A stretch of DNA of 64,000 nt, taken from the NCBI GenBank assembly GCA_006503475.1, contig RSEH01000129.1, positions 62,001 through 126,000 of the forward strand. Direction: 5' to 3'. The translations under genes and the position numbers were made by a program. The notes beneath the pieces were generated by a model, which searched no databases, was not told the DNA's origin, and saw only the letters and a list, made by a program, of their open reading frames with translations. Below, piece by piece: positions 2,168 to 40,400 of this stretch. This DNA comes from Stentor roeselii. Taxonomy: Eukaryota > Ciliophora > Heterotrichea > Heterotrichida > Stentoridae. Position 1 is the stretch's first letter, and each line of letters begins with the position of its first letter.

Positions 2168-2560
2168 ATGATTGAATATCAGTTTTCAGATAATGAAGAA
2201 AACTTCAGTGAATCGAGGAAATCATCTGGATCTAGAAGGCCCAGGACTCGGACTTCGATGAGAGGAGAGAGTGAGTCGAGTGTTAAAGGAATTCAAACTC
2301 CGAAACAAAGCAGGTTTAAGTTTCACACTTTATTAAATGAACTTTCGAATCTTAAAAGTGAAAATTTGATATTGAAACAATGTCTTGCTGTTAAAGTTCC
2401 TAAAGGGTTCAGGGATTACTCGAAAATTGCGAGAAGGGTTAGGATGCAGACTCCTAATAGACAGAAACCTTGTAGTGTTTGTTCTAAGCTCCTTAGCAAA
2501 GGATTCACGACTCGTTTTTGCCCTACTCATGGATTTCAATTTAAAACTAATTTTAATTAA
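2168..2560 (+). CDS. Short protein with leucine-rich coil and C-terminal CCCH motif (130 aa)
   Basis: I do not recognise the family. The N-terminal 50 residues are polar and basic with S-R-R-P-R-T-R-T stretches. Residues about 55-80 form a short leucine-rich coil (LLNELSNLKSENLILKQ). The last 30 residues hold KPCSVCSKLLSKGFTTRFC followed by PTH, a C-x2-C-x12-C-x2-H arrangement that could bind zinc. The same tail, with KPC, LL, KGF, T, C and H in register, ends the otherwise different coiled-coil protein at 30073-30900. The two share an architecture (coil, basic linker, CCCH tail), so they probably belong to one lineage-specific family. The gene starts 26 nt after the previous stop. Confidence is high that it is coding, nil on function. 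Confidence 0.7.
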   Translation: MIEYQFSDNEENFSESRKSSGSRRPRTRTSMRGESESSVKGIQTPKQSRFKFHTLLNELSNLKSENLILKQCLAVKVPKGFRDYSKIARRVRMQTPNRQKPCSVCSKLLSKGFTTRFCPTHGFQFKTNFN

Positions 2561-4822: not shown

Positions 4823-7387
4823 TTAAAAACCTTCATGCCAATCAGGTAAAAAATCTGCATCTTTCAAAGGAAATAATTCTACCTCCTCACTAGAAATAGC
4901 ATTTTGTACTAAAATTGAAGGACTTACTGGAGGTTTAACCTTCTTGAGTCTGAACAGATTCCAGTCAATACAAGAGAAGTAACTTTGCAGCTTAAACTTC
5001 TGAGGTCCTCCAATCATCCTTGAATCTGGGTTTTTACATAAAAGCTGCTCAATAATTCTCTTACTTTCAAAGAATTCATCTGCGAAATCGTTGTAAATAA
5101 GACGTTTTCTTAGAATTTTTTCATAGATTGAATAAGGATCGTCGTCTTTATCTCCAAAAGGAACTACTCGGCAGATCATTTCATATAAAATCACTCCGAT
5201 GATCCAAAACATTGAGCTTGAATTGATGCCTTTTTCTGTTATAGCTTCGGGTGGGAGGTAATAAGGATTTCCGAGTATTGTATGAGTTCGATCATGCACG
5301 ATTTTCGAAAGTGCTAAATCATTCAACACAGCATATCCATCACTATCTATAATAAAAGACTCAGAAGTCATATTCCTCAGAACAACATGATTTTCTGATA
5401 AATAGGCAACAATGTCTACTAAACAAGCAAAATAAAACTTATACAAATACTCAAAGTTATGCCCTTGTGATTGAAGATGCTTAAGCAGCAGATTCCCTGA
5501 GGTATACTCTGAAAAGATTAAAATTCCCAGGTCATTTTTTTCATATGACAGGTACTGAGGAATTAAAAAGTGGTCAACTATCTGCAAGACCTGCAATTCT
5601 TCAACTAAGTACTTTTTATAAGGATGAATTACAAGATTTCTAGAGATAGAAGTTACTTTAACCAGTTTTTTTTCAGAATTTTCAGCCAAAAATTCAATTT
5701 TTTCTCCAGTCTGAGAAAGTTTTTTGATGATTTTCAAGCTTTTGCTGTTAATTTCACAGCATTTGAATTCCAACCGACTTTTAATAATTTCCAGAAGATC
5801 TGGTTGAATAAGACTTAAAATGACAACTTTTTCAAAAATCCAAAATTCACTAGTTTCTAAACATTCAACATTCTCTTTAAACTTTTTATCAATAATAATT
5901 TCAACTTCTCCAAAAACAATTCCAGGACATTCAAGAACTTTTTTTCCATCAACTCTAATTTTTCCCCTTTTAAGAATAAAAAATTTCTGAGCTTCTTCAT
6001 CTTTTTTCATTACAAGCTCTCCAATTGTAAAGACTTTGACAATATTTTTCTTAGAAAGAGAATGAATAACCTCTAACCCACATTCAACAAGAAAAGGAAT
6101 TTTCTTTAAATATTCAGAAATTTCAACAAGTTCTTCAACAGACTGATTTTCAGTATCAAGAATCTTTTTGATGCTTTCAGAATCAATGACTCCCAAGTCG
6201 CATTCTCCATCAGCGACGATGTGATCGTCGAGTTCAGGATGATTTCCTCGCCAATTTTCCTCAACTCCTAAAAAAGTCAGCTTTTCAACTAAATTTCCTC
6301 CTTTTCTGAAGTCTCCTCTAAGGAAAATCCATAGATTTGAGGAAAGGTCGGATCCTTTTTCTATCGCGACTTCGTCTCGAAGTTGGATTATTTTGAATTC
6401 ACTTGCTAAGGTTTTTAGTTGATTTTCGCTTAGAAGGCAGAAGTATTTTTCTTTGTTGAGACATTCTAGGATTAGATTGTTGTATAAGACTTTTTGGAAA
6501 TTTCCTTCGAAGACGGTGTTTAATACTGTTCGGCTTATCATTAGACAAGTAACTTCATTCAAAGCAATAACAGTGGCATTTCGAGGAGCACTATTCAAAA
6601 TCGAAATTTCTCCAAAATAATCTCCTTTATGAATCCTCCTTTTTTCAGTGCCTCTAATAACACAAGAAGCAGTTCCTTCCTTAACAATAAACATAGACTC
6701 TCCCTTCTGATTAATTCCAACAATTTTCGAATTCTGAGGAAACTTCATCTGAACAATAGACTTAACAAGGCTATCAATTTGTTTTTCCTCCATATCAGCA
6801 AAAACAGGTATTTTCTTAATAAATTCCTTATTTTCCGCATAATTCGAGATAGTGATCTGAGTTAAAAGACTGTTAAAGTTGCTTCTAGTGATAGTCCAAA
6901 GAAGAGCATCACTAATAGCAATGATCGACGATGTTCTCAAAGAGTTCTGAATCAAGGCCAACTCGCCGAAACAGTCTCCAGTCTTCAAAAAGTTGATTCT
7001 TTTGCCGTCAATAATCACTTCGACTGTCCCTTGACTGATGATGAAGAACATGTGGCCTGGTTTGTTTTGTTCTATTATCAAATCTCCTTGTTTCACTTGA
7101 AGCAGTATCATTGACTCTGATATTTTAGAGATCTTTGCTGGACTCAAAGAGTTGAACAGTGTCGAACTTTTCAGACTTGAGTTTATCAGGCTTAGGTCTG
7201 ATGAGGTTTTCGATTTTTCTACTCGTTTCGCTGTTTTCGCATCGGATGAAGTGTGTTTTGATAGAATGTCTTCTAGATGGCTTCCTAGATTACTTGCGGA
7301 TTGATTTACAGAGTTTTGCTGTTTTGAGAGACTTAGCATTTCCACGAATTTTCCTGAATGGTTTGATTTTCTTTGAGCACAGCCCAT
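4823..7387 (-). CDS. PKG-like protein with tandem cyclic-nucleotide-binding domains and a degenerate kinase domain
   Basis: The 854-residue protein begins MGCAQRK, a classic N-myristoylation site with an adjacent Cys for palmitoylation, so membrane attachment is likely. Cyclic-nucleotide-binding domains lie at about 81-180 (cassette FGELALIQNSLRTSS), 195-300 (FGEISILNSAPRNAT), a poor one at 310-420, and a divergent one at 427-540. A kinase-like domain fills about 555-815, the layout of cGMP-dependent protein kinases. Its catalytic motifs are broken. No glycine-rich loop is visible. HRD is LRN (670-672), the Asn of HRDxKxxxN is Ser, and DFG is DLA (690-692). The later PPE and W-G-x-I-x-Y-E regions are kept. 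By family knowledge it should lack phosphotransfer and act as a cyclic-nucleotide-controlled scaffold or regulator. It is a single exon. Confidence 0.85.
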   Translation of the reverse strand: MGCAQRKSNHSGKFVEMLSLSKQQNSVNQSASNLGSHLEDILSKHTSSDAKTAKRVEKSKTSSDLSLINSSLKSSTLFNSLSPAKISKISESMILLQVKQGDLIIEQNKPGHMFFIISQGTVEVIIDGKRINFLKTGDCFGELALIQNSLRTSSIIAISDALLWTITRSNFNSLLTQITISNYAENKEFIKKIPVFADMEEKQIDSLVKSIVQMKFPQNSKIVGINQKGESMFIVKEGTASCVIRGTEKRRIHKGDYFGEISILNSAPRNATVIALNEVTCLMISRTVLNTVFEGNFQKVLYNNLILECLNKEKYFCLLSENQLKTLASEFKIIQLRDEVAIEKGSDLSSNLWIFLRGDFRKGGNLVEKLTFLGVEENWRGNHPELDDHIVADGECDLGVIDSESIKKILDTENQSVEELVEISEYLKKIPFLVECGLEVIHSLSKKNIVKVFTIGELVMKKDEEAQKFFILKRGKIRVDGKKVLECPGIVFGEVEIIIDKKFKENVECLETSEFWIFEKVVILSLIQPDLLEIIKSRLEFKCCEINSKSLKIIKKLSQTGEKIEFLAENSEKKLVKVTSISRNLVIHPYKKYLVEELQVLQIVDHFLIPQYLSYEKNDLGILIFSEYTSGNLLLKHLQSQGHNFEYLYKFYFACLVDIVAYLSENHVVLRNMTSESFIIDSDGYAVLNDLALSKIVHDRTHTILGNPYYLPPEAITEKGINSSSMFWIIGVILYEMICRVVPFGDKDDDPYSIYEKILRKRLIYNDFADEFFESKRIIEQLLCKNPDSRMIGGPQKFKLQSYFSCIDWNLFRLKKVKPPVSPSILVQNAISSEEVELFPLKDADFLPDWHEGF

Positions 7388-9616: not shown

Positions 9617-12244
9617 ATGCTTAAAGATCAGTATTACATAGACCAAACTCTTCTGCACTGCATACCCAACGATTTCTTCGATCCAAAATTCCAAGAAACT
9701 CTAGAACTCGGTAAAAAGTGGTATATCCTCAGTACAACCTGGCTTCAAAAACTCGAAAACTACCTAAAATTTCCTGAAAACAATGAAAACTTCTCATCAG
9801 TCGGTAAAATCGACAATTCCGACATAATCGACTCAAAAGAATCCAACATCTTCCCCAAAAACTTTCCACTTAAAGAATCCTGCTCATTCATCAAAGACTA
9901 CAAAATAATCCCAGCAAGTCTCTGGAAATTTCTCAAGAAAAAATTTGGCTACCTTTCCAAAATTTCAAGAAAAGTCATAAAAAAACCTGACTCAAAAAAA
10001 GAACTCGAAATAAATCCTCTAAAACTGAAAATTTTAATCTTAAAAAACTCAAAAATAATCAACACCGAACCTTTATTCTTCTTTTTCTCTAAAACTGTGA
10101 AAATTCCTGAAATTCTTACCAATCTAAAAAATTTTACTTCTAAAGACTTTAGAAATATCTCTTCAGCACGATTATGGAAGGCAGGAAGTCAGGTTTCTTT
10201 AGATTTGATTTTGAAATTATTGGAAAAAAATGAAGTTTTTATCGATTTTCCTGGAGTTAGGATCGAGTCGTTTTCAGGGACTTTAAACGACCTTGGTGTT
10301 AAAATTGATGACTTTTTTATCTACGAGTACAAAGAAGGCTATTCAAGCAAATTCATCCTAAGAGAGAAAAAACCTGAAATCTGCACAATTTGTTCATCTT
10401 CCACAAACGACGGGCATCTTTGTACATGTCACCAATTTTACTTCTGCAGTGAGACCTGCAGTAAGACCCACAAACCTTCAGTTCCTTCAAAATCAATTCC
10501 ATCTCAACTCACATCAAATTTTTTTTTTCTCTCAAAAGGTTTAAAAAACCTTGGAAACACCTGCTATTTGAATGCAGGTCTTCAATGTTTATTCCACACA
10601 AGTCCTTTAATAGAATACATCCTTCACGACAGTTACTTGGAAGACTTGAATCTCGTGAACCCTCTCTCAACAAAAGGACGACTCATCTGCGAGTTCGCTG
10701 ACCTTGTCCATCAATTATCTCGAAAAACTTCCAACATATCCCCAGGTCCTTTAAAAGAAGCCTTGTCCGAGTTTTCTTCTCAATTTTCTTCAAACATGCA
10801 GCAAGACTGCCAAGAAATGCTTAGCTACTTACTTGATGGACTTCATGAAGATGTCAATAAAGTCATTGACAAGCCAATCACTGAAACTCCTGACGATCAA
10901 GGAAAAAATGATGAAGAATTAAAAGAAATTAACTGGAAAAATCACTTGTTAAGAAATGATAGCTTTTTAGTCAAGATCATGCATGGACAGCTCAAGTCAG
11001 CACTTAGATGTCCTGATTGTTCTCAATTTTCACGACTTTTTGACCCTTTTTTAATGATTTCTCTCCCAGTTCCTGATAATTCACTTAAAATTGTCTACTT
11101 TGTCCTGGTCACTCATCAGTCTTCACTCATGGGAAAAGTCCAAATCGGGAAAAAAGCTCTCGTTTGTGACCTGCGAGCTGAAATCAGCAAAACTTTAAAA
11201 ATTCCTGAAAATTCCTTTGAAATCGTCGAGTTTTTCAACAACTTTTTTGTGAAATTTCTCCAAAATGATAAAAAAGTGAAAAAAAGGTCAACAGTTTTGA
11301 TTTTTTTTCGAGATTCTCAGAAAAGTGAGTTTTTCGACGAAGATTTCAAGTACATTGTTTTGACCTTTAAGAAGAAAACAGCTGATGGAGGACTAGTGAA
11401 ACTAGGGAAGCCTCATTTGATCCTGACAGACTTCTGCTCGTCATTGAGAGAGCTTTACAGCCAGGTCTTGGAGTACACTTTAAAGATGAGAAACATTCAT
11501 TTTTCAAATCTTTCTTCAGAGTTCAGTAAAAGACTTCCAAGTCATTCAAAAAAAAGCTATCTTGACATTGACGAGTTTAAATTGATTTTTGATGAACATT
11601 TAAACAAACCTTGTCCTCAGTGCTTTCAAGTGACTTGTACTGGATGCTTGATTCGATGTTCAAATGACTTGGTTGCAGGACTCTTCTTGTCAACAACTGA
11701 AGAATTTTTAAGGGTTTCAGTTGTTTTATCATCGAAACTTCAGGATTTCTCCCCTTTTGAAAACTTGTCTTTTCACCCTTCCTGCGACGAAAAAGTAGAA
11801 AACTCTGAAAACTTTACTTTAAATGAATGTTTCCGTCTTTTTTCAAGCGTTGAGCAACTAGACGATTCAAACTCTTTATTTTGCAAGACCTGCAAAAAAC
11901 ATTCGAACTTTTTAAAGACCCTTGAAATTGTTCGTCTTCCTGAAATTTTAATCATTCACTTGAAAAGATTCAAAAGAAAAGGAAATAAATCAGTAAAAAA
12001 TCAGGCAATGGTTGACTTTCCAGTGAATTCTTTAGACTTGGGGCAGATCTGTGAGGTTTCCGGGGTTTATTCTTTATACGCCGTGGTTCAGCACATGGGA
12101 AGTCTCGAAGGCGGTCATTACAACGCAGTCTGCAAAGGACTTGATGAAAAGTGGCGACTTTTCGATGATGATATCGTCCGCCCCATTACTTTCAAAGTGA
12201 CTCCAGCGGCTTACATCCTTTTTTATAGAAAAATCAATTCTTAA
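9617..12244 (+). CDS. Ubiquitin-specific protease (DUSP-MYND-USP type)
   Basis: This 875-residue deubiquitinase is a single exon. Residues about 25-100 resemble a DUSP domain (GKKWYILSTTWLQKLENYLK, then GKIDNSDI). A MYND-like Cys/His cluster starts at C256 (ICTICSSS...CSETCSKTH). The catalytic domain opens with GLKNLGNTCYLNAGLQC, nucleophile C316, and closes with GSLEGGHYNAVC, catalytic H834, followed by WRLFDDDIVRP. A zinc-ribbon pair CPDC and a second CPQC/CKTC pair lie in the fingers region. The layout is close to the USP4/USP11/USP15 and yeast Ubp12 group with an added MYND finger. It should remove ubiquitin from substrates; the specific substrate is not visible. It is the first of five same-strand genes packed with 3-19 nt gaps, the next starting 9 nt after its stop. 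Confidence 0.92.
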   Translation: MLKDQYYIDQTLLHCIPNDFFDPKFQETLELGKKWYILSTTWLQKLENYLKFPENNENFSSVGKIDNSDIIDSKESNIFPKNFPLKESCSFIKDYKIIPASLWKFLKKKFGYLSKISRKVIKKPDSKKELEINPLKLKILILKNSKIINTEPLFFFFSKTVKIPEILTNLKNFTSKDFRNISSARLWKAGSQVSLDLILKLLEKNEVFIDFPGVRIESFSGTLNDLGVKIDDFFIYEYKEGYSSKFILREKKPEICTICSSSTNDGHLCTCHQFYFCSETCSKTHKPSVPSKSIPSQLTSNFFFLSKGLKNLGNTCYLNAGLQCLFHTSPLIEYILHDSYLEDLNLVNPLSTKGRLICEFADLVHQLSRKTSNISPGPLKEALSEFSSQFSSNMQQDCQEMLSYLLDGLHEDVNKVIDKPITETPDDQGKNDEELKEINWKNHLLRNDSFLVKIMHGQLKSALRCPDCSQFSRLFDPFLMISLPVPDNSLKIVYFVLVTHQSSLMGKVQIGKKALVCDLRAEISKTLKIPENSFEIVEFFNNFFVKFLQNDKKVKKRSTVLIFFRDSQKSEFFDEDFKYIVLTFKKKTADGGLVKLGKPHLILTDFCSSLRELYSQVLEYTLKMRNIHFSNLSSEFSKRLPSHSKKSYLDIDEFKLIFDEHLNKPCPQCFQVTCTGCLIRCSNDLVAGLFLSTTEEFLRVSVVLSSKLQDFSPFENLSFHPSCDEKVENSENFTLNECFRLFSSVEQLDDSNSLFCKTCKKHSNFLKTLEIVRLPEILIIHLKRFKRKGNKSVKNQAMVDFPVNSLDLGQICEVSGVYSLYAVVQHMGSLEGGHYNAVCKGLDEKWRLFDDDIVRPITFKVTPAAYILFYRKINS

Positions 12245-23840: not shown

Positions 23841-26800
23841 ATGCAAAACGAAAATCCAATAGAAAACCCTCCAATAGAAAACCCCGCAATCGAAGAAAAT
23901 AAACCAGAAGCAAGATTTCCTCTACTCGTGGACCTTCCGATCCCCCTCCTCTGCTACCCATCAGACCTGTTCATATTTGAATTAAAAGCTCTGAAGCCTC
24001 TATCAGTATCAGGAGGTCTAGGAAGAAGTCTTCAAAGTCTTCTAAAGCCCGCAATAGTGAGAGAAGAGCAGCCAATAATCGGAGAAACCGCCAAATTTTT
24101 CACAAAAGACATGAAAATAGACGGTATCTACACGAAAGGCGCGCAAGAAATCACTTACAACTTACAAAAGCTAGAACAACGACTTCTACGTGAAAAAGAA
24201 CTCGGGTACTTCAATCGTAGCAACTGGGAACTGAGACTAGACTCAGACCTGACAACTCATTTTCTCAGTCGGCCTGTTGACATTTCTCTAGAATCCAACC
24301 CGAACACCTACTTGAAGCACATGTCAGCGATGTACTCTCACCGGAACAACGCAACTAAAACAAAATACTACAGACTTGACTTGTTCCTCGGGCAGATAAA
24401 CTTCAAGGACCACCCGATGTTCTGTGAAGAGGACTACATGGCACAACAGGTCGTTTATCTTTTTCATCTCTATGAAAAACGTGTCAGTCTCTGCCTAGTC
24501 GACCATCTGGACAACCGCAAGCGAGTCTTAGAAGACGAGTTAGAAGAAAAGTCTTCCATGTTCCGAAAAGGTGCTTTCGCTGCGTCTTCCTTGGAACAGA
24601 AGCAAAACCAGGAGCTTCAAGAAGAACTGGAAGTGATTCAAGACAATTTAAACTCAGTGATTCAAAAAGTCAATGAAGAAAAAAAGTACCTTCAAGAAAT
24701 GGCGGATAATCTTTATACCAAGTGGCAGGATTTAAAAGCTCTTAGAGCGAAACAAGGAGTTTCTCATACAACTGTCCGACTTGCAGTGAAGACAGTGATT
24801 GAAAGTGGCCGTGCCCCTGAGTATGATTTTTACCTTCAGTCTGAAAATCCTAGTGATCTGGTTTCGAACAATGAAAAAAGTCGTCGAACTCTCATTGGAG
24901 CGACGAGAGTCTTTGTAAGAATTCTAGTCAATGGGGTTTACGTCACTCGTTCCACGAAGCAGTTCATTAAATGGCCGAGTTTTGAAGTTTTCTTCGGGGA
25001 ACGCTTCGAACTTCATCTTTTCACTCGGCCTGTCAAGGTCCGTTTGGAGATCTGCACCGGGTTGAGGTGGACGAGGACTTTAGCAGTAGTCGAGTTCACA
25101 CCTCCAGGACTTAACTCTCGCGCAATGACCTCCACTGGAAGGGTTTATAAAGACTTGGAGTTCATCGGGGCTGAAGTCATCAAAAACGTCTTTTCAGATA
25201 CTTTGCCAAGAAAAGTCACAGGAAGGGTCACGTTGAAGTCCTCTTGGGTCGGTCATAGTGAAAGACTTCCACCTATTCGATTTGATGACCTTTCACTTAT
25301 TCCTAGAAATTTTTATGTCGCTCCTGAGGATTTAGCTAGTTTTATTGATATCAACGACCCACGCAATAAGGACTTGCTGTATTTTTTGATAAGGAAAAGA
25401 GAAGAACAGATACAAAATTTACTTCGAGAAGATGCTTTGTTTCCACATCAGAGGTTTGATGCTTATCGATATATGATATATAGAGAACGGTATAATTTTA
25501 ATGACTTAGCAGAAATTCCTATTCCTTTACTTGAACGAGATATTATCAGCAACCCAAGAATGAGGACTATTGTTGATATCATCAAATCGCGAAAGGCACC
25601 CGAGCAGCGAATTAATTATTTTTACGTGCAAAGACTTAAACTTGAGTCTTTAAAAGACACGCCAGGAGTAATCCGCATGAAATCTCTGATGGACCACTTC
25701 CGAATCAAGCAAAACCGGATAAAACTAGGCTTCGAGAAAGACAAAGCCTCTTTAGAAAACGTGGTAAGAGAATTTATCATGATTGACAGCAAATACCTTC
25801 TACAATGCTGGAAGTTTCTTTTCACTCCAAGACGAAAACTATTACCTCGTAAGAAAAAAGCGCCAATAGTAGCAGTTTCAAGTCAAAGTTCTTGTAAAAT
25901 CTCAATAATCGTTTACAAAGCTGTCAACGTTCCAATCCGAGCAGGTGGAAAAGAAAGTGAAAAAAAATACATCCAGACTGAAATGATTAATTCAGTAAAG
26001 ACGAAATATGGAGTAAGTGCTTTTATGCTTTCATCTCAAGCCAACTACAACTCTCAACCAGTTGGCCTGAACCCGTTCTCCAGTCAATTCGGCCAGTCAG
26101 GTCCAGCGAGCATCCCGATGATCGAAGAGAACCGCATCGAAATCGACCACGACAAGATCATCAAATACGGACTCATCGAACGAGTTCAAGGCTTCGTTGA
26201 AATCGTTTTAGTCCATCACGAGAAGACTTCGATGGTAAGGACTATTCCATTCGAAGGCGCTTTTCCTGAATGGAACGAATTGTTAGAACTGACCTTCACT
26301 TGTCTTAACGGTTCAGAGTTCACTATTAACGAGTTACTTGACTGTGATAGTACTCTTTACTTCAACCTTTACGATCAGCTAGTGTCTAAATCTGACACGA
26401 TTCATAGAAATGAGTTTAACGTTAAATTGGAAAGAAGGTTCTTAGCAGGATTCGAACTTCCACTGCTGACACTCCTTCAGAACCCGCAAGGAATCGAAGC
26501 TTCGTTCAGATTAAACAGACCACTTTGCCTGCAGGGATACCGCATTGAAAAGACTGACCCGTTCAGAGCTGCTGACAACAACGACGTGTTTATAGACCCT
26601 GAGAAGCCGACTTACTTAAGTGTGAAGTTAAGCCTTGACCCTGCTTTAGAACTTCCTGTTGACAATGAGGCTGAGTACTACCCTGGCTTCGAGCCTCCTA
26701 CTTTTCTCTTCTCTGGGTCTAACTGGTTGAGTAGTATGAAAAATAAAGTTTCTATTCTTAAAGACCGAAAAATTCAACTCTGGGCTGAAAACTCTGATGG

Positions 26801-27956
26801 ACAAAGCGTGTTTCTTCCGAGGTACATCCACCCTCTGCAACCACCTGAAGGACTTATTGCAAATGACGATATGGACCCCATTGCTAAGGTCGCTAGGTTT
26901 GTATCACTCATTCCACATATTGAAGACTCTCAAGGATTCAAAGACTTGCCAGATATCTGGAGTACTAGTCAGGAGTTCTTTGATCTCAGCTTTGGAGATT
27001 ATGAAGAACATGCGGTTCTTTTATGTAATTACTTTAAGTGGATCGATAGGGAAAAACCACAGCTGAAAAGTTATGTTGTTATTGGAACTGGAGTACCTGA
27101 AGGTAAGTCTATTTATGTACTGAGGAGAGATACTGTTAAAGGTGACTTGGAACTGTGGAATGCTTCCACTGGCGTCGGGTATTCAATCATCCAGGAGCCT
27201 TACAGTGCAAGTTTTTTGTGCTTTAGTATCTCAAGAGGTACGAAAAATCGCATTACGGACAAGGAATACACAATTGGACTTAAAAGTGTCGGATGTGTCT
27301 TTGATGAAAATGATATTTTTTTCAATATACAGAAATACAGTGATCCCTACGTCATCGACTTCAACATCGACAATCCGAAGGCTTGGCTTCCGTTTTTAGG
27401 ACCTAATCGAAAACCGATTTTTTTCCCTAATAACGTCATTAACACTGTTCAAACACCTCTTGAATATGAAATCACTCCTGAAAGGTTTATTTATGAAAAA
27501 CAAATTGAACTGGAAAAGTTTCTACAGAAAAGATTCCAAGATGCGAAAATTTCGAGTGATAATCGAGGGTTTCGATGGGCTTCAAATGAGATTAATAGAA
27601 GGATTTATGAAGTTTTTCCTGATTTGGAAACTTTTCACTCGTCTTTTAGAGCTGGAGCTAGTGAGTCTTCGCTTTATTTGTATCAGAGGGAGAGGGCCAA
27701 CCAGATGTTGAGTGACATTGAAAAAAGGTTCTTAGAAATCATGACTGAAAGGAGCTTTGGAATCACTGTCAATTGCCCTTTGGAAAGTCCTGAGAAGGTC
27801 TGGGAAAAGGTGAAAAATACTGATGTGCATAATATCGGATATGATAATTGCCAGTTTGTGTTAGTTGCCAGGATGTTCCCTTATCCTGGATTTATCTGCT
27901 CAGTCTGGGTTTACCTAGGAGTAATTTTTGGGGATCATGGGTATCGAACTTATTAA
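23841..27956 (+). CDS. CC2D2A: CC2D2A homologue, ciliary transition-zone protein
   Basis: The 1,371-residue protein is a single exon. It has an N-terminal coiled region (about 225-290), a C2-like region with RTLIGATRVFVRILVNGVYV, the central part rich in RFDAYRY and RINYFYVQRL motifs, a second C2 domain near 680-900 (YIQTEMIN, FPEWNELLELTF), and the long conserved C-terminus. Several C-terminal blocks match human CC2D2A as I recall it: VIGTGVPEG followed by YVLRRD, VGCVFDENDIFFNIQKY, RGFRWASNEINRRI, and VHNIGYDN...MFPYPGF...SVWVY. In animals and Tetrahymena this protein belongs to the MKS module that gates the cilium base. Human mutations cause Joubert and Meckel syndromes. The start is taken as the ATG right after the 19-bp array; no shorter alternative is needed. 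Confidence 0.93.
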   Translation: MQNENPIENPPIENPAIEENKPEARFPLLVDLPIPLLCYPSDLFIFELKALKPLSVSGGLGRSLQSLLKPAIVREEQPIIGETAKFFTKDMKIDGIYTKGAQEITYNLQKLEQRLLREKELGYFNRSNWELRLDSDLTTHFLSRPVDISLESNPNTYLKHMSAMYSHRNNATKTKYYRLDLFLGQINFKDHPMFCEEDYMAQQVVYLFHLYEKRVSLCLVDHLDNRKRVLEDELEEKSSMFRKGAFAASSLEQKQNQELQEELEVIQDNLNSVIQKVNEEKKYLQEMADNLYTKWQDLKALRAKQGVSHTTVRLAVKTVIESGRAPEYDFYLQSENPSDLVSNNEKSRRTLIGATRVFVRILVNGVYVTRSTKQFIKWPSFEVFFGERFELHLFTRPVKVRLEICTGLRWTRTLAVVEFTPPGLNSRAMTSTGRVYKDLEFIGAEVIKNVFSDTLPRKVTGRVTLKSSWVGHSERLPPIRFDDLSLIPRNFYVAPEDLASFIDINDPRNKDLLYFLIRKREEQIQNLLREDALFPHQRFDAYRYMIYRERYNFNDLAEIPIPLLERDIISNPRMRTIVDIIKSRKAPEQRINYFYVQRLKLESLKDTPGVIRMKSLMDHFRIKQNRIKLGFEKDKASLENVVREFIMIDSKYLLQCWKFLFTPRRKLLPRKKKAPIVAVSSQSSCKISIIVYKAVNVPIRAGGKESEKKYIQTEMINSVKTKYGVSAFMLSSQANYNSQPVGLNPFSSQFGQSGPASIPMIEENRIEIDHDKIIKYGLIERVQGFVEIVLVHHEKTSMVRTIPFEGAFPEWNELLELTFTCLNGSEFTINELLDCDSTLYFNLYDQLVSKSDTIHRNEFNVKLERRFLAGFELPLLTLLQNPQGIEASFRLNRPLCLQGYRIEKTDPFRAADNNDVFIDPEKPTYLSVKLSLDPALELPVDNEAEYYPGFEPPTFLFSGSNWLSSMKNKVSILKDRKIQLWAENSDGQSVFLPRYIHPLQPPEGLIANDDMDPIAKVARFVSLIPHIEDSQGFKDLPDIWSTSQEFFDLSFGDYEEHAVLLCNYFKWIDREKPQLKSYVVIGTGVPEGKSIYVLRRDTVKGDLELWNASTGVGYSIIQEPYSASFLCFSISRGTKNRITDKEYTIGLKSVGCVFDENDIFFNIQKYSDPYVIDFNIDNPKAWLPFLGPNRKPIFFPNNVINTVQTPLEYEITPERFIYEKQIELEKFLQKRFQDAKISSDNRGFRWASNEINRRIYEVFPDLETFHSSFRAGASESSLYLYQRERANQMLSDIEKRFLEIMTERSFGITVNCPLESPEKVWEKVKNTDVHNIGYDNCQFVLVARMFPYPGFICSVWVYLGVIFGDHGYRTY

Positions 27957-28438: not shown

Positions 28439-29089
28439 ATGGCTGACAGGAAGAAGAATATAAAACTATGGCTCGCTGAAGTACTTTACATTTAGGAAGA
28501 CTCTGCTCTGATTACTCTTATCGAGAAGCACGGCTTCAAAAACTGGAAAAGTGTGTCAGTCGAGCTAAAAAAGAAACATAAAATCAATCGAACCCCGAAA
28601 CAATGCCGAGACAGGTGGTTCAACAACTTAAAAAACGAGAAAAACTCTCAACCCTTCTCAGAAGATGAAATTGACAAGCTTATTGAGCTCTACACGGAAT
28701 TTGGAGCACAGTGGTCTAAAATTTCTCAGATGATGGATAATCGTACGGAAAACCAGCTTAAAAACTTCATGAATGCAACTGTGAGAAGAAACATCAGAAA
28801 GTATAATAAAGGGAAACTTGAAATCGAGAAAATAAAAGTAAGTTCTTTAGAAATCCTGCAGATTCAAGAAGTGAGAGAACTTCTCCTACTCAAAAAAGAC
28901 GTGGATAGGAAATGGTTCGCTGATAAGTTCTTGTCTGACCAGGCCATGATGCAAATAGAAATGATAAATCTGTATAGGAATATAAACAACTTTCCACAAG
29001 CACAAAACTTTTCAGTATTTCCTGTTGTGAACCCGTTTTATCCAATGACTTACTTCGATTATTTTGATCAAATAGTTACTCCAGACTAA
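28439..29089 (+). CDS. Two-repeat Myb/SANT DNA-binding protein (211 aa, two exons)
   Basis: ATG 28439 opens a 14-codon first exon. A 15-nt intron (28481-28495) then removes an in-frame TAG and joins it to the main ORF. The product has two Myb repeats. The first is about residues 10-55 (WLAEEDSALITLIEKHGF-KNWKSVSVEL ... QCRDRWFNNL) and the second about 62-110 (FSEDEIDKLIELYTEFGAQW ... NRTENQLKNFMNATVRR). The Trp ladder is partly replaced (first Trp of repeat 2 is Phe), as is common. The layout is that of R2R3-type c-Myb relatives, which bind DNA as transcription factors. The C-terminus is hydrophobic and aromatic (VNPFYPMTYFDYFDQIV), a possible activation or partner segment. Targets are unknown. 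Confidence 0.85.
28481..28495 (+). other. 15-nt intron
   Basis: GTACTTTACATTTAG, with A at position 10 and an in-frame TAG. Without splicing the Myb protein would stop after 18 codons. Confidence 0.85.
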
Positions 29090-29400: not shown

Positions 29401-30021
29401 ATGTCTTGGAAGTCTGAAATCTCGAGTTGGATAAGTACTTTACGTGAAGAGCTAAATGAAATTCCTTACACCCTTGATCAACTCGATCAAAAGATCGAAA
29501 TCGACCCAAAAATCAAGCAAAAGCTTAAAAAAGTCTCAGAATTACTCAGTAAAAGCATCCAAAACTTCATTAAAAAGTCATTAAAGTTACGATCTCAATC
29601 AATTCTCACAGACCAAACACTAAAAACAACCCGAGACGATTACCTTCGTCTCATGAACAGCGCCGAGAGTTTTTTCACAGCTCTTCATCAATCAAACCTG
29701 AAGCCAAAATACACGAAATCAACTTTCACCTCAAGAATAAAAACAAAGCAAATTCCACAAAAGTCAATTTCAAGGTCAAGGTCAGTGAAAAATTCTTCGA
29801 ATTTTTCATCGTTAGACTTGGAAACATGTGGAAAAATCAACAAAATAGTAAAAAAAGTCGATTCCCACAAACATAAAATATTAGAAGACAAGCTTCAGCG
29901 ACTTGAAACAGAAATCTCGAAAAATCAAGGAAAAGTTGATTTTATGAGAGAAGAAGTGCAGGAAAGTCTTGATTTTGCGAGATCTTTAATGAAAAGACTC
30001 AACGTCTTGGACCCTGAATAG
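29401..30021 (+). CDS. Coiled-coil protein of unknown function (206 aa)
   Basis: I do not recognise it. Residues 1-75 are helical and charged (SWISTLREELNEIPYTLDQL), the middle 100-135 is basic and Ser/Thr-rich (KSISRSRSVKNSSNFSS), and 145-205 is a strong heptad coil (ILEDKLQRLETEISKNQGKV). There is no membrane segment or signal peptide. It precedes another coiled-coil gene on the same strand by 51 nt, and both have basic Ser-rich linkers, so they may be cytoskeletal or basal-body proteins. That is only an inference from composition. Confidence 0.65.
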   Translation: MSWKSEISSWISTLREELNEIPYTLDQLDQKIEIDPKIKQKLKKVSELLSKSIQNFIKKSLKLRSQSILTDQTLKTTRDDYLRLMNSAESFFTALHQSNLKPKYTKSTFTSRIKTKQIPQKSISRSRSVKNSSNFSSLDLETCGKINKIVKKVDSHKHKILEDKLQRLETEISKNQGKVDFMREEVQESLDFARSLMKRLNVLDPE

Positions 30022-30072: not shown

Positions 30073-30900
30073 ATGAATAACTCTGTCAAAACTTTACATG
30101 ATCAGAACCTTCGTCTTCGGAATGAAATTCAAAAACTCAAAAGTTCGATAAGGGAACTCAGCGGGTCTACCTGTAGAAGTTTGAATAATGAGAGTAAAGA
30201 ACTACCTCCTCAAAAGTTGTCAGCTTTACAGAAAGAGAACCTGATAGAGAACCTTAAAAAACAAATCGAAAATGTGAAAAAACCGAGTAATCCGTCTCCA
30301 AAGCAAGCTCTCCAAGAAATAAAAGAAGTAAAATGGAAAAACCTTCCCCCAAGCGGTAAAGTCTACACAAGTTCCAACTGTTCAGAGCGGGTTTCAATGC
30401 GAGCAAGTAAGGCGGTTCAAGAAAACCTTTCAAAAATTTCCAAATTAAGCGAAAGCCATTCAAGCAAAGGACAAGCTCCAAGTCTCTCCCATTCAAGACA
30501 CGCAAGACTATTAGATTCATTCCAATCTTACTACGAGTCAGAAGAAGAAAACCTTTCAAAATTCGGAAAATGCGAACTTTCCTACATCGAGTACAAAAAA
30601 GACCATGAAAAAGGCGCAAGAAGAAAAGAAAGGAAAATGCAAGAAGAAATCGAAGAGCTTCGCAAGGAAAACAGCGAACTTAAACTAAGACTTCAAAAAT
30701 TTGGCTTAAAAACAAAAGAAAAATCAGGCCCTGCGCTGTCAGTGACTCCTAGAAAAAGGTCATCATCGCGAATTTCTCAGAAATCTTTCAGAACCTGCAG
30801 AAGTTCGAATTCTTTTCGAAGAAAACCTTGTCTTAAATGTGTTTCTTTGCTTGCCAAAGGGTTTTCCACGGCACATTGCAATAAACACAGGTTTAAATAA
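30073..30900 (+). CDS. Coiled-coil protein with C-terminal CCCH motif (275 aa)
   Basis: An N-terminal coil (LHDQNLRLRNEIQKLKSSIR) is followed by a long basic, polar region and a second coil at about 190-215 (EIEELRKENSELKLRLQKFG). A Ser/Arg linker (RKRSSSRISQKSFRTCRSS) leads to the C-terminus KPCLKCVSLLAKGFSTAHC then NKH. This C-x2-C-x12-C-x2-H tail lines up with the one ending the protein at 2168-2560, including KPC, LL, KGF, T and the final aromatic. The two are otherwise different in length and sequence. I know no named domain with this signature; a small zinc-binding or protein-binding tail is plausible. The stop codon overlaps the end of the convergent gene by 8 nt. Confidence 0.7.
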   Translation: MNNSVKTLHDQNLRLRNEIQKLKSSIRELSGSTCRSLNNESKELPPQKLSALQKENLIENLKKQIENVKKPSNPSPKQALQEIKEVKWKNLPPSGKVYTSSNCSERVSMRASKAVQENLSKISKLSESHSSKGQAPSLSHSRHARLLDSFQSYYESEEENLSKFGKCELSYIEYKKDHEKGARRKERKMQEEIEELRKENSELKLRLQKFGLKTKEKSGPALSVTPRKRSSSRISQKSFRTCRSSNSFRRKPCLKCVSLLAKGFSTAHCNKHRFK

Positions 30901-34320: not shown

Positions 34321-34468
34321 ATTATCTAGTTTGGTTAAAATGCATACATCTGGATATTTATTCATCTTTTTAAATGTCTAGGAAATGATTGTCCTAGATT
34401 AAATCTTTAAATTCAAAGATCCCTTGAAACCAATTCAAAAGCCTTCATCACCCAAAAAAAATACAAAA

Positions 34469-37285
34469 ATGGCCTACACCTCTAAAAACAGCATCCTACG
34501 CGCCAAACGTCTTCAATCCTTCTGCGAAAGTGAAAACCTAAGCGCCCTGATTTTCATTCTAGGAATAGACAGCCGTCGAAACCGTCTAACCGAGCAGCTT
34601 TACTTCTGGTTATTCCACGGAATCTCAGGTAACGAGACCTTATCCTCAGTATCCCTTCCCTTAACCGAAGAAGAAGTTTCATGGATAGTGACTCCAAGTT
34701 CATTTTCCATTTTCATCGGAAGTGCCTGCAACGACATCTCAGAGACTTCATCTCTTTTCAGCCGAATTCACCAAATTTCATTATCTTGGCCAGGTGTGCA
34801 TCTGACGACTTTGACCAAAGACGAGGTGCAAGACTCAGAACTTGCTGAAAACACGAAATTGCTTTGGTTCAATCGAACCATGAGTCAAGTCCTCGGACCT
34901 GTCGGGGTCTGTTCCTCTGAAATCGAAACTTGGCCTCTTATCCAAGGCTACGCAATTGACTTGTTCGGCTTAGGCTTCTTTTCAATGAGTCATCCTCCAA
35001 AGGACATTTCTTTTCCAATTTCTCAAATTTTTTTAGAATTTGACGATGCTGGAATTTTAGCTGTTTTGAATGAACACCTTCCAAGACTTTTCAATGTTTT
35101 TCAACAGACTATTGACTTTGTGAATAAAAGGAATTATTCTGCTGGAAGAGGGGAATTAAGGGAAAAGGGGATTGGTGAATGTGTGACTTTGCCTTTTGAA
35201 TACGCCACTTTGCAGAGTTTGAAGGAGAGAATGGTGAAGCCTGAATTTCGCTTGTTTGGTTTTGAAAATACTGATAAATTGCACTCGGCACATCATATGA
35301 CTGTTCAAAGTGTTTGTGGAGTTTCAGGTATTTTCGCTGCGAGGACTTGGTTTTTAATTCCTTCAGGCGGGATCAAGGAATTCATTTCTCAGTATCAAGA
35401 AGAAGATGACGTCAGAGGCTTGATGCAGATTTACAAGATTGTCTCAGATGCAGTTCAAAAAGCTTTAAAGGTAATAGCACCTGTTGAAGATATAAAAGAA
35501 AAAATTTTACTAGAAATATTCAAATCAAAGACTTTATTTAAATACCATCATATGCTTGAACCTATTCGAAAGGCAAAAATCGATTTTTTCAGTCATGATG
35601 CTGATGGCATCACTTCAAGTTACAATGAAAACCTGCCGATTCACACTGTTTTATTTAAAGCTACCGCTTTACAGTCAAAAGACTTCGGAAACTTCGGAGA
35701 CCTGGTCTTTGCCGAAACTTTTATAAGCCGAGGAGGGTATTTAACGAATGTGACTGAAAACATTCCCACCCTTGTCCTTTGGGAAAATCAAACAAAACGG
35801 CCGTGGGTCAGTGCTTATGGAGAAAAACTAAGTCAGGTAGATAACACTTTGCTTTACATTGAAGAATTCGGCAGTTTTATAGGAACTTTACTCATTTTTG
35901 AACTTGGGTGGGCTTTTCGGTCGATTCACTTGGGACAACTCGAGTATTCCATTGATGAGTTCTGTAGAGTCGAGCAACATACAGCGGAAATTTTAAGTTT
36001 TTTCACTGAAACTGTTAGAATTATTGTTAAACTGCCTCGAAGTACCTCTTTTGTTTTAGTTTCGATTTGGAAGATTAAAGATATTGATACTGAACCACCT
36101 GAACTGCCTGTTGTTAAACAAGTCATTGTTCCACATTTGGACTATGCTCTTGATGCTGAGGTCTTTGAGGATTTGATTCCTTTGTACTTTGTTACTGGAG
36201 TTGCTGGCTCTGGGAAGACTAAAGCGGCGAAGGATCTTGCGAGAGGACTTAAGGCTAATCTGTTGGCTCCTCCTTTGGAAATTGCTGCATGTTTTGATTT
36301 GGAGTTCTGGAAACAGGCTTTGGCAGGGGTTAATAAGTCTACTGTTGTATTACTTCCGAGCTTTTTGTCGGTTCTTGAATTCAAACACCTTATTCCTTCT
36401 AATTGTTATGTCAGGTCTGTTATTTGTAGGGTTAGCAGCAAGAATATTTATTTGAATTATAAGAGGAAAATAAAAATTCCGGCTTTGATTCATTTGATAC
36501 AGTCTTGTAACTCTTTGATTTATGAGGAAGGTGCTGGAAATGATGAGTTTGGGAAGATTCTTTTAGACATTAACCCATACATGGAGATCTTTAAAATTTC
36601 AGGAACCATCGGCCCAGCCCAAGCCCGTAACATCGGAAACGTTCCTAAAAGAGTTCCAATTCAGCTTCCTTACCACCCCGAATTTAAACTCCAAAGCGTA
36701 TTCATGCACATTCCTCTACCACTCGTCGAAAGTAAAATAAAAGCTCGTTTAGCAAACTCGGAGATATCAGACGACGGAGCGATAGCTAAAAGAATATCAT
36801 GGCAAAACGACTTAGAAATTCTAAGAATAAAGGGTTGCGTCGAGTTCTACATCAAGGAAAATGAATTTTTTGAGATATCAGGGACTTCGAAGTACCTTGT
36901 TTCATCTCCTTGCGAAGCTTCAACTCCTGGGATTCTTTTCATTGGAAGAAACTTGGACCTGGTGAAACTTTACGAATTTGTACTTGACTGCAGGTCTCAT
37001 ACTAATAAAATCGCTTTGAAGACTAGGAAAGGACTGAGTTCTAGTGAAGTCGCTAACATTGAAAATAATCTGCCTGATAATTCGGAGTACAGATTTGATG
37101 GGGTTTGCTATGTTGATAGTGAAGGGAAAAGGTTTAAAGTACACCCGGACTTGGAGCAGGCACTTCAGGATTATGTGGACCAGGAAAATGACCGCATTGG
37201 GAATATTAACCGCGCTGTTGAGAAAGAAGCTTCTATTTTGAAAAAGGCGAATAGTAAGACGGTGATTAATCAGGTATTTCTTTAA
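34469..37285 (+). CDS. DNAAF9: Shulin/DNAAF9-like dynein assembly factor (938 aa)
   Basis: I take the first ATG, 34469. The N-terminus RAKRLQSFCESENLSALIF then ILGIDSRRN (residues 30-38) resembles the start of human C20orf194/DNAAF9 (FLGIDSRYN as I recall it), whose Tetrahymena homologue Shulin packages outer-arm dynein for delivery into cilia. Mid-protein strands (FGDLVFAETFISRGGYLTN, ELGWAFRSIHLGQLEYSI) also fit. A P-loop GVAGSGKT sits at 577-584, followed by a Walker-type fold, so nucleotide binding is likely. The length is somewhat short of the 1,100-1,200 residues of other members. The last codons form the first unit of a tandem repeat that continues downstream. It faces the HECT gene. 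Family call is good but not certain without alignment. Confidence 0.72.
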   Translation: MAYTSKNSILRAKRLQSFCESENLSALIFILGIDSRRNRLTEQLYFWLFHGISGNETLSSVSLPLTEEEVSWIVTPSSFSIFIGSACNDISETSSLFSRIHQISLSWPGVHLTTLTKDEVQDSELAENTKLLWFNRTMSQVLGPVGVCSSEIETWPLIQGYAIDLFGLGFFSMSHPPKDISFPISQIFLEFDDAGILAVLNEHLPRLFNVFQQTIDFVNKRNYSAGRGELREKGIGECVTLPFEYATLQSLKERMVKPEFRLFGFENTDKLHSAHHMTVQSVCGVSGIFAARTWFLIPSGGIKEFISQYQEEDDVRGLMQIYKIVSDAVQKALKVIAPVEDIKEKILLEIFKSKTLFKYHHMLEPIRKAKIDFFSHDADGITSSYNENLPIHTVLFKATALQSKDFGNFGDLVFAETFISRGGYLTNVTENIPTLVLWENQTKRPWVSAYGEKLSQVDNTLLYIEEFGSFIGTLLIFELGWAFRSIHLGQLEYSIDEFCRVEQHTAEILSFFTETVRIIVKLPRSTSFVLVSIWKIKDIDTEPPELPVVKQVIVPHLDYALDAEVFEDLIPLYFVTGVAGSGKTKAAKDLARGLKANLLAPPLEIAACFDLEFWKQALAGVNKSTVVLLPSFLSVLEFKHLIPSNCYVRSVICRVSSKNIYLNYKRKIKIPALIHLIQSCNSLIYEEGAGNDEFGKILLDINPYMEIFKISGTIGPAQARNIGNVPKRVPIQLPYHPEFKLQSVFMHIPLPLVESKIKARLANSEISDDGAIAKRISWQNDLEILRIKGCVEFYIKENEFFEISGTSKYLVSSPCEASTPGILFIGRNLDLVKLYEFVLDCRSHTNKIALKTRKGLSSSEVANIENNLPDNSEYRFDGVCYVDSEGKRFKVHPDLEQALQDYVDQENDRIGNINRAVEKEASILKKANSKTVINQVFL

Positions 37286-37430: not shown

Positions 37431-40400
37431 CTAAGACAGATAAAACGACTCATGGCCTTCTTGCACTGCATATTTTAAGTTCCTCTGAAGGATCTCAAAA
37501 CTAGAGTACTCCGGTATTTTTAAGTAGTTTTGACATGTCATAACACTAGGAAGGTATTCATCCGGATGCATTCCTTGAATACTCGGGTCTTTTCTCACAA
37601 CAGTCAACTTCGGATTCAAAGCGGCGAATCCTCCAAAAGGCAATCTAGGAGACCCAGTAAGAAACTGTAAGAACTTTCTTTGTTCATTCAATGAAAACTC
37701 GCTCATAATGATGAGCAAATTATTAAAAACCGGAGAATTTGCAGTAAAACCATGAGCCGGATGAATATTTTGCTGAAGTTCTTCCATTTTCCAAGGACTT
37801 CCAGTTTGTCCACAGAGCAAGTCCTCCATTTCTTCGCCGGTAAAAAGTTCTAAAGTAGAAACAGGCATTAAGACCTCAAGTCCTTGTCTAAAAGCCTCGG
37901 CTTGCGCAGTTTGAAGAAGGGTGGCGGCAGTGACTAGCTTGAGGTACTCTTCTAAGTTTTCACTGGTGACGAGACAGTTTTTTCCTCCACTTTTCAGCTC
38001 GATTTTTTCGTAACCGGGAAGAATGAAGCTTAGGTTTAAGGACTCGATTGAAGAGTCTTTGTATAAAAGTTTTGTTCGTTTTGGTCGCTGGGATAAGAGA
38101 TTGTTGAAGTCTACTAGAATTTGTCCTAAGGACTTGTCGACTTTGGACATGTCGAAGAGAGTCACGGGATGGCCTAGGACTAGCTTCCAGAAGACTGGAC
38201 TGAAGTTTAAGTCGATTTGACGCTTGTCGGCTAGAGCTTTTCCCACAAACCTTCCAATAAAATTGAAATTTTCTTTCCAACCTCCAGAGCAAGCTTTAAC
38301 AGGCATAGGAAACAATCCAGTTTCATCAGAACTTCTCCAAAGTCTCAATTTCCTAATCTCAACCGACACAAGACTAAAAAATTCAAGACTGGGTCCAATT
38401 CCAGTTCCAACTTCATTTTCATAATCAATTTCAAGTTGCCCTTGTTTCAAAAGTCTCGAATCAGACATGATAGAAACAGCCTTTTCAAGTAAACTTGACC
38501 GATTAGCCCGAGCTTTCGTCTTGCACTGAGGCACTTTGATGCAGAAAGAGTGAAGATACTGTTCACGAATCGAATAAGGAAATAAAAATCTGCAAGCTTT
38601 CGGCAGAGACAACACCCAAGACGGCAAAGACGGAATCGTTGGTATCGACTCTTGAAGCATTTTCGGGTTGATATTATGAAGAAACATGTTCTGCTCCTGT
38701 ACTTGACGTGAAAGTAAAGAACCTAGTTTAGCACTTTTAAAAACTGGTAAAAGCAGCTTTGAAAGACAAGCTGACTGAAGTCCTGATGAGAAATTTTGCA
38801 GAAAATCATTTGTAAGGAACAAAAGCTTTAAAAGACTGAGATAAGGAAGGACTTTATACTTCGAGTCAAGTGAAAGTTTCGTTGACTCCGCGATGATATA
38901 AGAGTAAATCGACTGGGTGTTAGTCAAAACCTCACTTGTCACATGCGAACCTATTTTCATCACCAATGCGAATTTGATTTGAGGAGAGTCTAAAAGTTTC
39001 AAAGACGCGAAAACATCAGCAATCGTCGAAGAAAGTTCAATTTTCTGACTGTTAATACTAAAAACCAGTGAAAATCGCGAGTCTTCCACAGGTTTCAAGT
39101 GCAGATCTTCCAGGTAGTCGTCATAATCATCGTCTGAGTACTCTCCAAGTAGTTCCATGCGATGGTCTCTAGGAAAGCTGAGCAAGTCTCTCATGTTGCT
39201 GAGGTCTCTCGAGCTTTTCGCTGATAAGATCGCGTTTTTCAGTACTTCGAAAGTAGTGAACTGGCCGACAGTCATGTTAAACTGAGCACATGCTGAGAAA
39301 AGTTCATGTTTTTCAATCATTTCGTGACCTGGGTCACCTTCTGGACTGTATAAAAAGTGCAGGCGGACCCGTTGATTCATTCGCCGATATGAAAATGCAG
39401 GAAGTGAAGTAACAGAAACTGTAAAGTTCTGAGTGTACTGCAAAGCACCAATAATCACATTAATCAAAATCTCTAAAAATGTCTCACCTGTCGGACTAGG
39501 CTTCGAAAAAATCGCTAAAAAATCGTAAAGTCTCTTTAAAAGCACCTCAGAAGTCACTTTCGAGTCAGTCATCCAATTAAAAAGCACTTCAGGTAACTTA
39601 CTGCTACAGACTTCAAAACTACTGTATCGCTGACCAGTCGCTAGTCTTTTCGTGATTTTAATAAAAGCTTGCACAGCTGAATCACTCCCTTCAATCAACT
39701 TCACAAATTTTCCTAATTCTTTACTAAAGGCAGATTTGCCTTCAGTGCCTTTTTGCTTGTCTAAAAAAGTTTTGCTTAAATTTATCAAATTTTGCTGATA
39801 TTCCAGTTTTGAATCGTGACTTGACTGGAAAAATAAACTAGGAGGCGGTTCGTTCAAGTCCAATGCACGACTGCGTATTTTTGAAAGGATTTCTTCGAAA
39901 ATAAGTCTGCCGCTCGGTTCACTTTCATTTGAAAGACATCTGCGGAAGACAGGGTCGAAGTCCAGAAGCGGGTCTTTCAGAGGTTTGAAGTTTTTGAAGC
40001 CTTTCAAGTCTTTTAAAGCATTGACTCGATGAACGACGCCTTCTCGAATGAAGTTGGTGTTGACTGAGTCGAACATTCGGTCACTCAGGGTGTTAACGAT
40101 TTTAAGAGCGTGTTCGACCATTCGGAAGTCTTTACTTGCCAGGACTTCTGAGAGGAAAGAGGAGAATGAAGGACTAGAAACGAAGGGTTTTATATCGTTT
40201 TCCTCGGAAAGTTGAATTGTTTTGTCAAGGATCTCGATTACAGCGGTTTTACTTTCAGGATTCAGGAGTTCTTCGTACATTCCTATCGCTCGAGGAAAGA
40301 TCATCTCTGTGATTGAACGTAAGAACTGAGGACGGTCTGAATAAATTTTTAGTTTCTTTGATTCTTCTAGATTTGATGAAGTTTTACTTGGAAGGACTGA

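Follow-up and report, generated by a model that had tools for sequence, protein, structure and literature searches.

Nine or more coiled-coil proteins share a constrained C-terminal Cys3His tail in the genome of Stentor roeselii

Results

The window analyzed here is a stretch of 64,000 nucleotides from Stentor roeselii (contig C36, positions 62001-126000), and it encodes two proteins that end in the same short arrangement of cysteine and histidine residues. Member 1 (P0001) is an uninterrupted ORF of 130 aa at 2168-2560 (+), and member 2 (P0002) is an uninterrupted ORF of 275 aa at 30073-30900 (+), both in the standard code. When these ORFs are translated, the C-terminus reads KPCSVCSKLLSKGFTTRFCPTHGFQFKTNFN in member 1 and KPCLKCVSLLAKGFSTAHCNKHRFK in member 2, and the pattern KPC-x2-C-x2-LL-x-KGF-x-T-x2-C-x2-H-x-F, which an earlier note on this DNA had read in both proteins, is indeed present in each. 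Its core, C-x2-C-x12-C-x2-H, occupies 2471-2530 (+) in member 1 (Cys102, Cys105, Cys118, and His121) and 30829-30888 (+) in member 2 (Cys253, Cys256, Cys269, and His272). The similarity of the two proteins, which had been attributed to a coil, a basic linker, and the tail, covers these three parts in a BLASTP alignment (E = 2e-07). Across the six frames of the window the core spacing occurs exactly twice, in these two tails, against a mean of 0.06 occurrences per window in 200 mononucleotide shuffles, a simple null in which codon structure is lost. None of the 200 mononucleotide-shuffled windows had the spacing together with the Leu, Gly, and Thr.

Read in the standard code, long ORFs of the window stay open, such as one of 4805 aa at 47333-61750, and two introns of 15 nt (1856-1870 and 28481-28495) carry an A at position 10 and each leave one open frame when removed. 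In code, intron length, and the A at position 10 the window resembles Stentor as described in the excerpted parts of PMC9505925, which give the standard code, a length of 15 nt for 8173 of 8806 annotated introns, and a branch-point A that is the tenth nucleotide in about 91 % of introns overall; excerpts on Blepharisma (PMC9942806) describe mainly 15 and 16 bp introns and UGA read as tryptophan. The evidence for introns in the window consists of the two read examples. Intron-like words of 15 nt on its + strand show no excess (7 versus 8.15 in shuffles), and a weak frame-bridging test on 20 cases gave 3 at 15 nt, 3 at 12 nt, and 0 at other lengths; with longer flanks, none of the three 15-nt cases and one of the three 12-nt cases held.

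The intron at 1856-1870 belongs to the gene just upstream of member 1 (1566-2141, +), whose product is basic and Ser-rich by eye, and the one at 28481-28495 to a Myb gene (28439-29089, +) two ORFs upstream of member 2. Immediately upstream of member 2, an ORF of 206 aa (29401-30021, +) has only weak FlaC_arch and CHASE3 matches, both below cut-off. Elsewhere in the window, the 4805-aa ORF on the + strand, which we take to be RNF213-like, combines an RZ-type zinc finger with AAA domains and has no interrupting stop. A CC2D2A-like ORF (23841-27956, +) contains CC2D2AN-C2 and CEP76 peptidase-like domains, CC2D2A having a role in the ciliary transition zone, and the ORF at 34424-37285 (+) has the N-terminal domain of DAAF9, a dynein assembly factor. 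Further genes encode a protein kinase with three cyclic-nucleotide-binding stretches (4823-7387, -), a DUSP-UCH deubiquitinase (9617-12244, +), and a HECT ubiquitin ligase with TRIP12-like N-terminal repeats (37431-41306, -).

We searched the window's own genome (44,391,514 bases in 522 contigs) for further copies in which the Cys and His residues are kept. The larger family that the earlier note had suggested from two copies was borne out: seven more loci were found, giving nine with Cys/His retained. C36 carries two of these loci, and C154, C119, C505, C410, C349, C14, and C453 carry one each (these seven are named here by their contigs). With each of the nine tails as query, every listed match fell within these same nine loci on eight contigs. 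Counting self-matches, the query from C410 returned 9 matches, C505 7, member 1 6, member 2, C119, C154, and C349 5 each, C14 4, and C453 3; these counts are lower bounds, and the family has at least nine members. Because the search reads exon by exon, members whose tail is split by an intron may have been missed, and more divergent members may also escape tail queries. A control tail, with Cys and His fixed and the rest shuffled, gave 0 matches in the genome (one control). The best match of each member to another ranged from E = 7e-14 (C505/C410) to 0.026 (C453/C14). The weakest member is C453, which is linked to the others at E = 0.026-0.075; its coil and the C-terminal position of its tail make it likely that it is a genuine member. 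An N-terminal coil used as query, at E up to 1, retrieved only C410 itself, C505, and C349, all within the nine, and scans of viral contigs produced no confirmed relative.

Comparison of the nine tails shows that Cys1, Cys2, Leu+6, Gly+10, Thr+13, and Cys3 are invariant, and that Lys+9 is present in all members except C453, which has His instead (8 out of 9). The four candidate ligands are three cysteines found in every tail and a histidine that stands at C+3 (His+19) in eight tails and at C+4 in the ninth, C349. The fixed Cys/His spacing claimed earlier thus holds for eight of the nine tails, and its last interval is not absolutely fixed because C349 has C-x3-H. At the codon level, silent differences were found in 235 of the 388 codon pairs that encode identical residues (720 pairs compared), and the mean codon difference was 0.36 at positions 1+2 versus 0.66 at position 3, in a comparison that was not a formal dN/dS test. 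Given the silent differences and the lower change at positions 1+2, the codon pattern fits old paralogy under protein-level selection and not recent copying.

The tail is C-terminal and preceded by a coil in all nine proteins, which range from 90 to 368 aa, with only 2 to 13 residues after the His. Using a simple, self-devised heptad score compared with shuffles of each protein, we found that, across the nine members, between 0 and 7 of the 200 shuffles scored as high as the protein's best segment; in C349 the best segment is the N-terminal one, and its second coil rests on alignment. An extra N-terminal coil can be aligned in C410, C505, member 2, C349, and C14, and the short members are member 1, C154, C119, and C453 (90 to 151 aa), C453 being the shortest. 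Three coil positions, L62, E65, and L69 of member 1, are invariant in the full-length alignment of all nine. The 40-residue stretch that leads into the tail has a net charge of +6 to +12 in eight members and of 0 in C453. In only 5 of the 9 does a TP motif (TPNR, TPK, or TPR) precede the first Cys by six or seven residues, and SP/TP sites of the basic pattern counted are absent from two members (C154 and C453).

In member 1 the coiled-coil helix comprises residues 48-73 (2309-2386, +), as predicted by AlphaFold2, and only 2 of 200 shuffles equal its heptad score. It is followed by a basic linker of residues 74-101 (2387-2470, +), with a net charge of +9 across the 40 residues that lead into the tail and TPNR at residue 95, seven residues ahead of the first Cys. 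Member 2 has an N-terminal coil at residues 3-36 (30079-30180, +), identified by alignment and as an AlphaFold2 helix, a second helix or coil at residues 140-209 (30490-30699, +), identified by heptad score and AlphaFold2, and a basic linker at residues 210-252 (30700-30828, +), with a net charge of +12 across the 40 residues ahead of its tail.

The AlphaFold2 models of the two proteins were built on a two-sequence alignment without zinc, and they are not independent of each other because the same two sequences were used. For member 1 (mean pLDDT 56.2, pTM 0.21), helices were predicted at 48-73 and 103-110; block pLDDT is 68 and 66 for residues 51-70 of the coil and lower at either end, pLDDT falls below 50 at 85-97 in the linker, and the tail blocks reach 76 (101-110, the best block), 67 (111-120), and 43 (121-130, with the His). 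For member 2 (mean pLDDT 64.5, pTM 0.25), the helices at 3-36 and 140-209 are of high confidence in their cores, the second having a block pLDDT of 91-97 for 181-210 and 50-59 at its start. Its linker is mostly predicted to be disordered (pLDDT below 50 at 217-248), and its tail, with a helix at 254-261, has block values of 78 (251-260), 69 (261-270), and 59 (271-275, with the His). Both models thus run from a helix or coil through a poorly predicted linker to a better-predicted start of the tail, where a short helix lies over C-x2-C with moderate confidence and Cys3 and His are in the stretch that follows. A Foldseek search of the PDB with the model of member 1 gave no match.

The view that no named domain covers the tail withstood a check against known Pfam domains that had been set beforehand as a possible refutation: neither Pfam-A nor NCBIfam gave a convincing match. 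All Pfam-A matches with a stated cut-off lie below it, cut-offs being given for some members only. DUF6076, a family of unknown function, matched two of six tails (best E = 0.013) and two of nine (best 0.025), with a single stated score of 13.2 below the cut-off of 23.5. Many of the weak Pfam and NCBIfam matches are to coil-type families. With full-length proteins the best Pfam-A matches, among the best 25 of 36 families, were those of HALZ (0.00064) and Mito_fiss_reg (0.002), each to a single member, and NCBIfam gave nothing better than 0.0021 (YabA). In PHROGs, the unnamed phrog_3671 matched three of the nine full-length proteins (best E = 3.7e-05) and phrog_37588 one (0.0025), matches that we suspect may be due to the coils. 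Sequence searches of the PDB with a profile of six tails returned two chance-level chains (E = 0.38 and 3.6), and across the PDB profile searches no solved structure matched the tail better than E = 0.38. Open-access text searches, mostly requiring all terms jointly, found no paper on the tail. We conclude that the family is real and is named by no library searched, and it may have an uncharacterized entry elsewhere.

The full-length profile matched 33 PDB chains, led by USF2 (1.6e-4, over the coil), then mL100 (0.0013) and others. This result, the linker charge of +6 to +12 in eight of nine members, and weak bZIP_1 matches in three of nine (best E = 0.38 among the best 25 of 36 families) would suit nuclear nucleic-acid-binding factors in which the coil dimerizes, the basic linker contacts DNA or RNA, and the Cys3His finger adds specificity. 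We consider this improbable, since the USF2 match stops at the second coil without linker or tail, and since bZIP_1 and bZIP_2 reach no better than 0.38 and 0.29 among the best 25 of 36 families. Moreover, in bZIP proteins the basic region directly precedes the leucine zipper, whereas here the basic stretch comes after the coil. With bZIP_2 found in only two of nine members and bZIP_1 in three (best 25 of 36 families), and with the basic part following the coil, we did not assign the family to the bZIP transcription factors.

The tail could also be what is left of a known zinc domain after degeneration, for instance half of an NSMCE1-type RING or a zinc ribbon, either single or double. Weak matches point this way: DZR_2 (E = 0.0041, the best value for the nine tails, cut-off not given), Zn_ribbon_HMPTM (0.051), and UPF0547 (0.12) each matched one of the nine tails in Pfam-A, zf-Vps39_C one of six tails (0.052), zf-RING-like one of nine full-length proteins (0.047; best 25 of 36 families), and the nine-tail profile found a single PDB chain, the NSMCE1 RING 2ct0, at E = 2.1. 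However, each Pfam zinc family that matched did so in a single member, whether among the nine tails or among the best 25 of 36 families for the full-length proteins. The NSMCE1 RING-like sequence (2ct0; zf-RING-like), K-x-C-x2-C-x2-LL-x2-G-x-S-x2-C, does resemble the tail up to the third Cys, but RING fingers have eight Cys/His ligands in cross-brace order, whereas the family tail has only four and all nine proteins end 2-13 residues past the would-be fourth ligand, His. The tail thus does not have the ligand set of a RING finger. Zinc ribbons consist of two zinc knuckles joined by a β-hairpin. In DZR_2, Zn_ribbon_HMPTM, and UPF0547, as in the tail, a short stretch separates two pairs of ligands that are each spaced by two; the spacing of the tail is compatible with a ribbon. 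The tail differs from them in having His as the last ligand, a 12-residue spacing, invariant L/G/T in between, and, in both models (two-sequence alignment, moderate confidence), a helix and no strands at the first pair, unlike a ribbon knuckle. On balance, descent from one of these domains seems to us quite unlikely.

With equally little probability, the tail may be a short linear targeting or degradation signal, with Cys and His serving a disulfide, lipid modification, or a binding groove instead of zinc. Its length of about 20 residues, its C-terminal position in all nine proteins, the poor prediction of its His-bearing end, and the lack of a convincing match to known zinc domains would agree with such a signal. 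Cys/His pairs spaced by two, with Gly between them and jointly conserved, are nevertheless typical of metal sites, and it is such pairs and the Gly that are kept in nine divergent copies; in addition, prediction is better over the first 20 residues of the tail than over the linker.

Discussion

Our analysis establishes that this genome holds a family of proteins with heptad-rich, helix-forming segments and a constrained tail at the C-terminus. Judging from the conserved residues, the tail likely binds zinc, and what we say of oligomeric state, docking, partner, and regulation is inferred only. We propose, with a probability of about 0.5, that the proteins are coiled-coil scaffolds whose small Cys3His zinc module at the C-terminus serves for docking. 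The coil would form a dimer or higher oligomer, from which the disordered, mostly basic linker would extend, carrying proline-directed Ser/Thr sites in most members. The tail of roughly 20 residues would fold round one zinc ion and act as a compact module that docks to a partner, so that a dimer would present two copies, and the linker may bind the acidic surface of microtubules or of nucleic acid, with phosphorylation controlling the contact. In outline, this arrangement resembles that of NEMO, in which a coil and a linker lead to a single small C-terminal zinc finger used for docking. The finger of NEMO is a classical one with Cys-Cys-His-Cys ligands, versus Cys3His in the family tail, and no NEMO match was present among the Pfam and PDB matches listed for the tails and full-length proteins.

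More tentatively, and in our view with the odds against it, the tail could be an undescribed Cys3His zinc microdomain of about 20 residues that defines a heterotrich-specific family of coiled-coil scaffolds, whose paralogues would have diversified in length and coil number for different sites of the giant cell. According to PMC10810533, most lineage-specific ciliate gene families sit at shallow taxonomic scales, with which this family would be compatible. We regard the result as a sound finding on a small family, and not as the discovery of a novel type of system. For protists that are rich in uncharacterized genes it contributes a constrained module absent from the catalogues searched, along with a list of nine genes, and if the tail is truly a zinc-dependent docking module, the family would provide handles on which giant-cell structures these scaffolds build.
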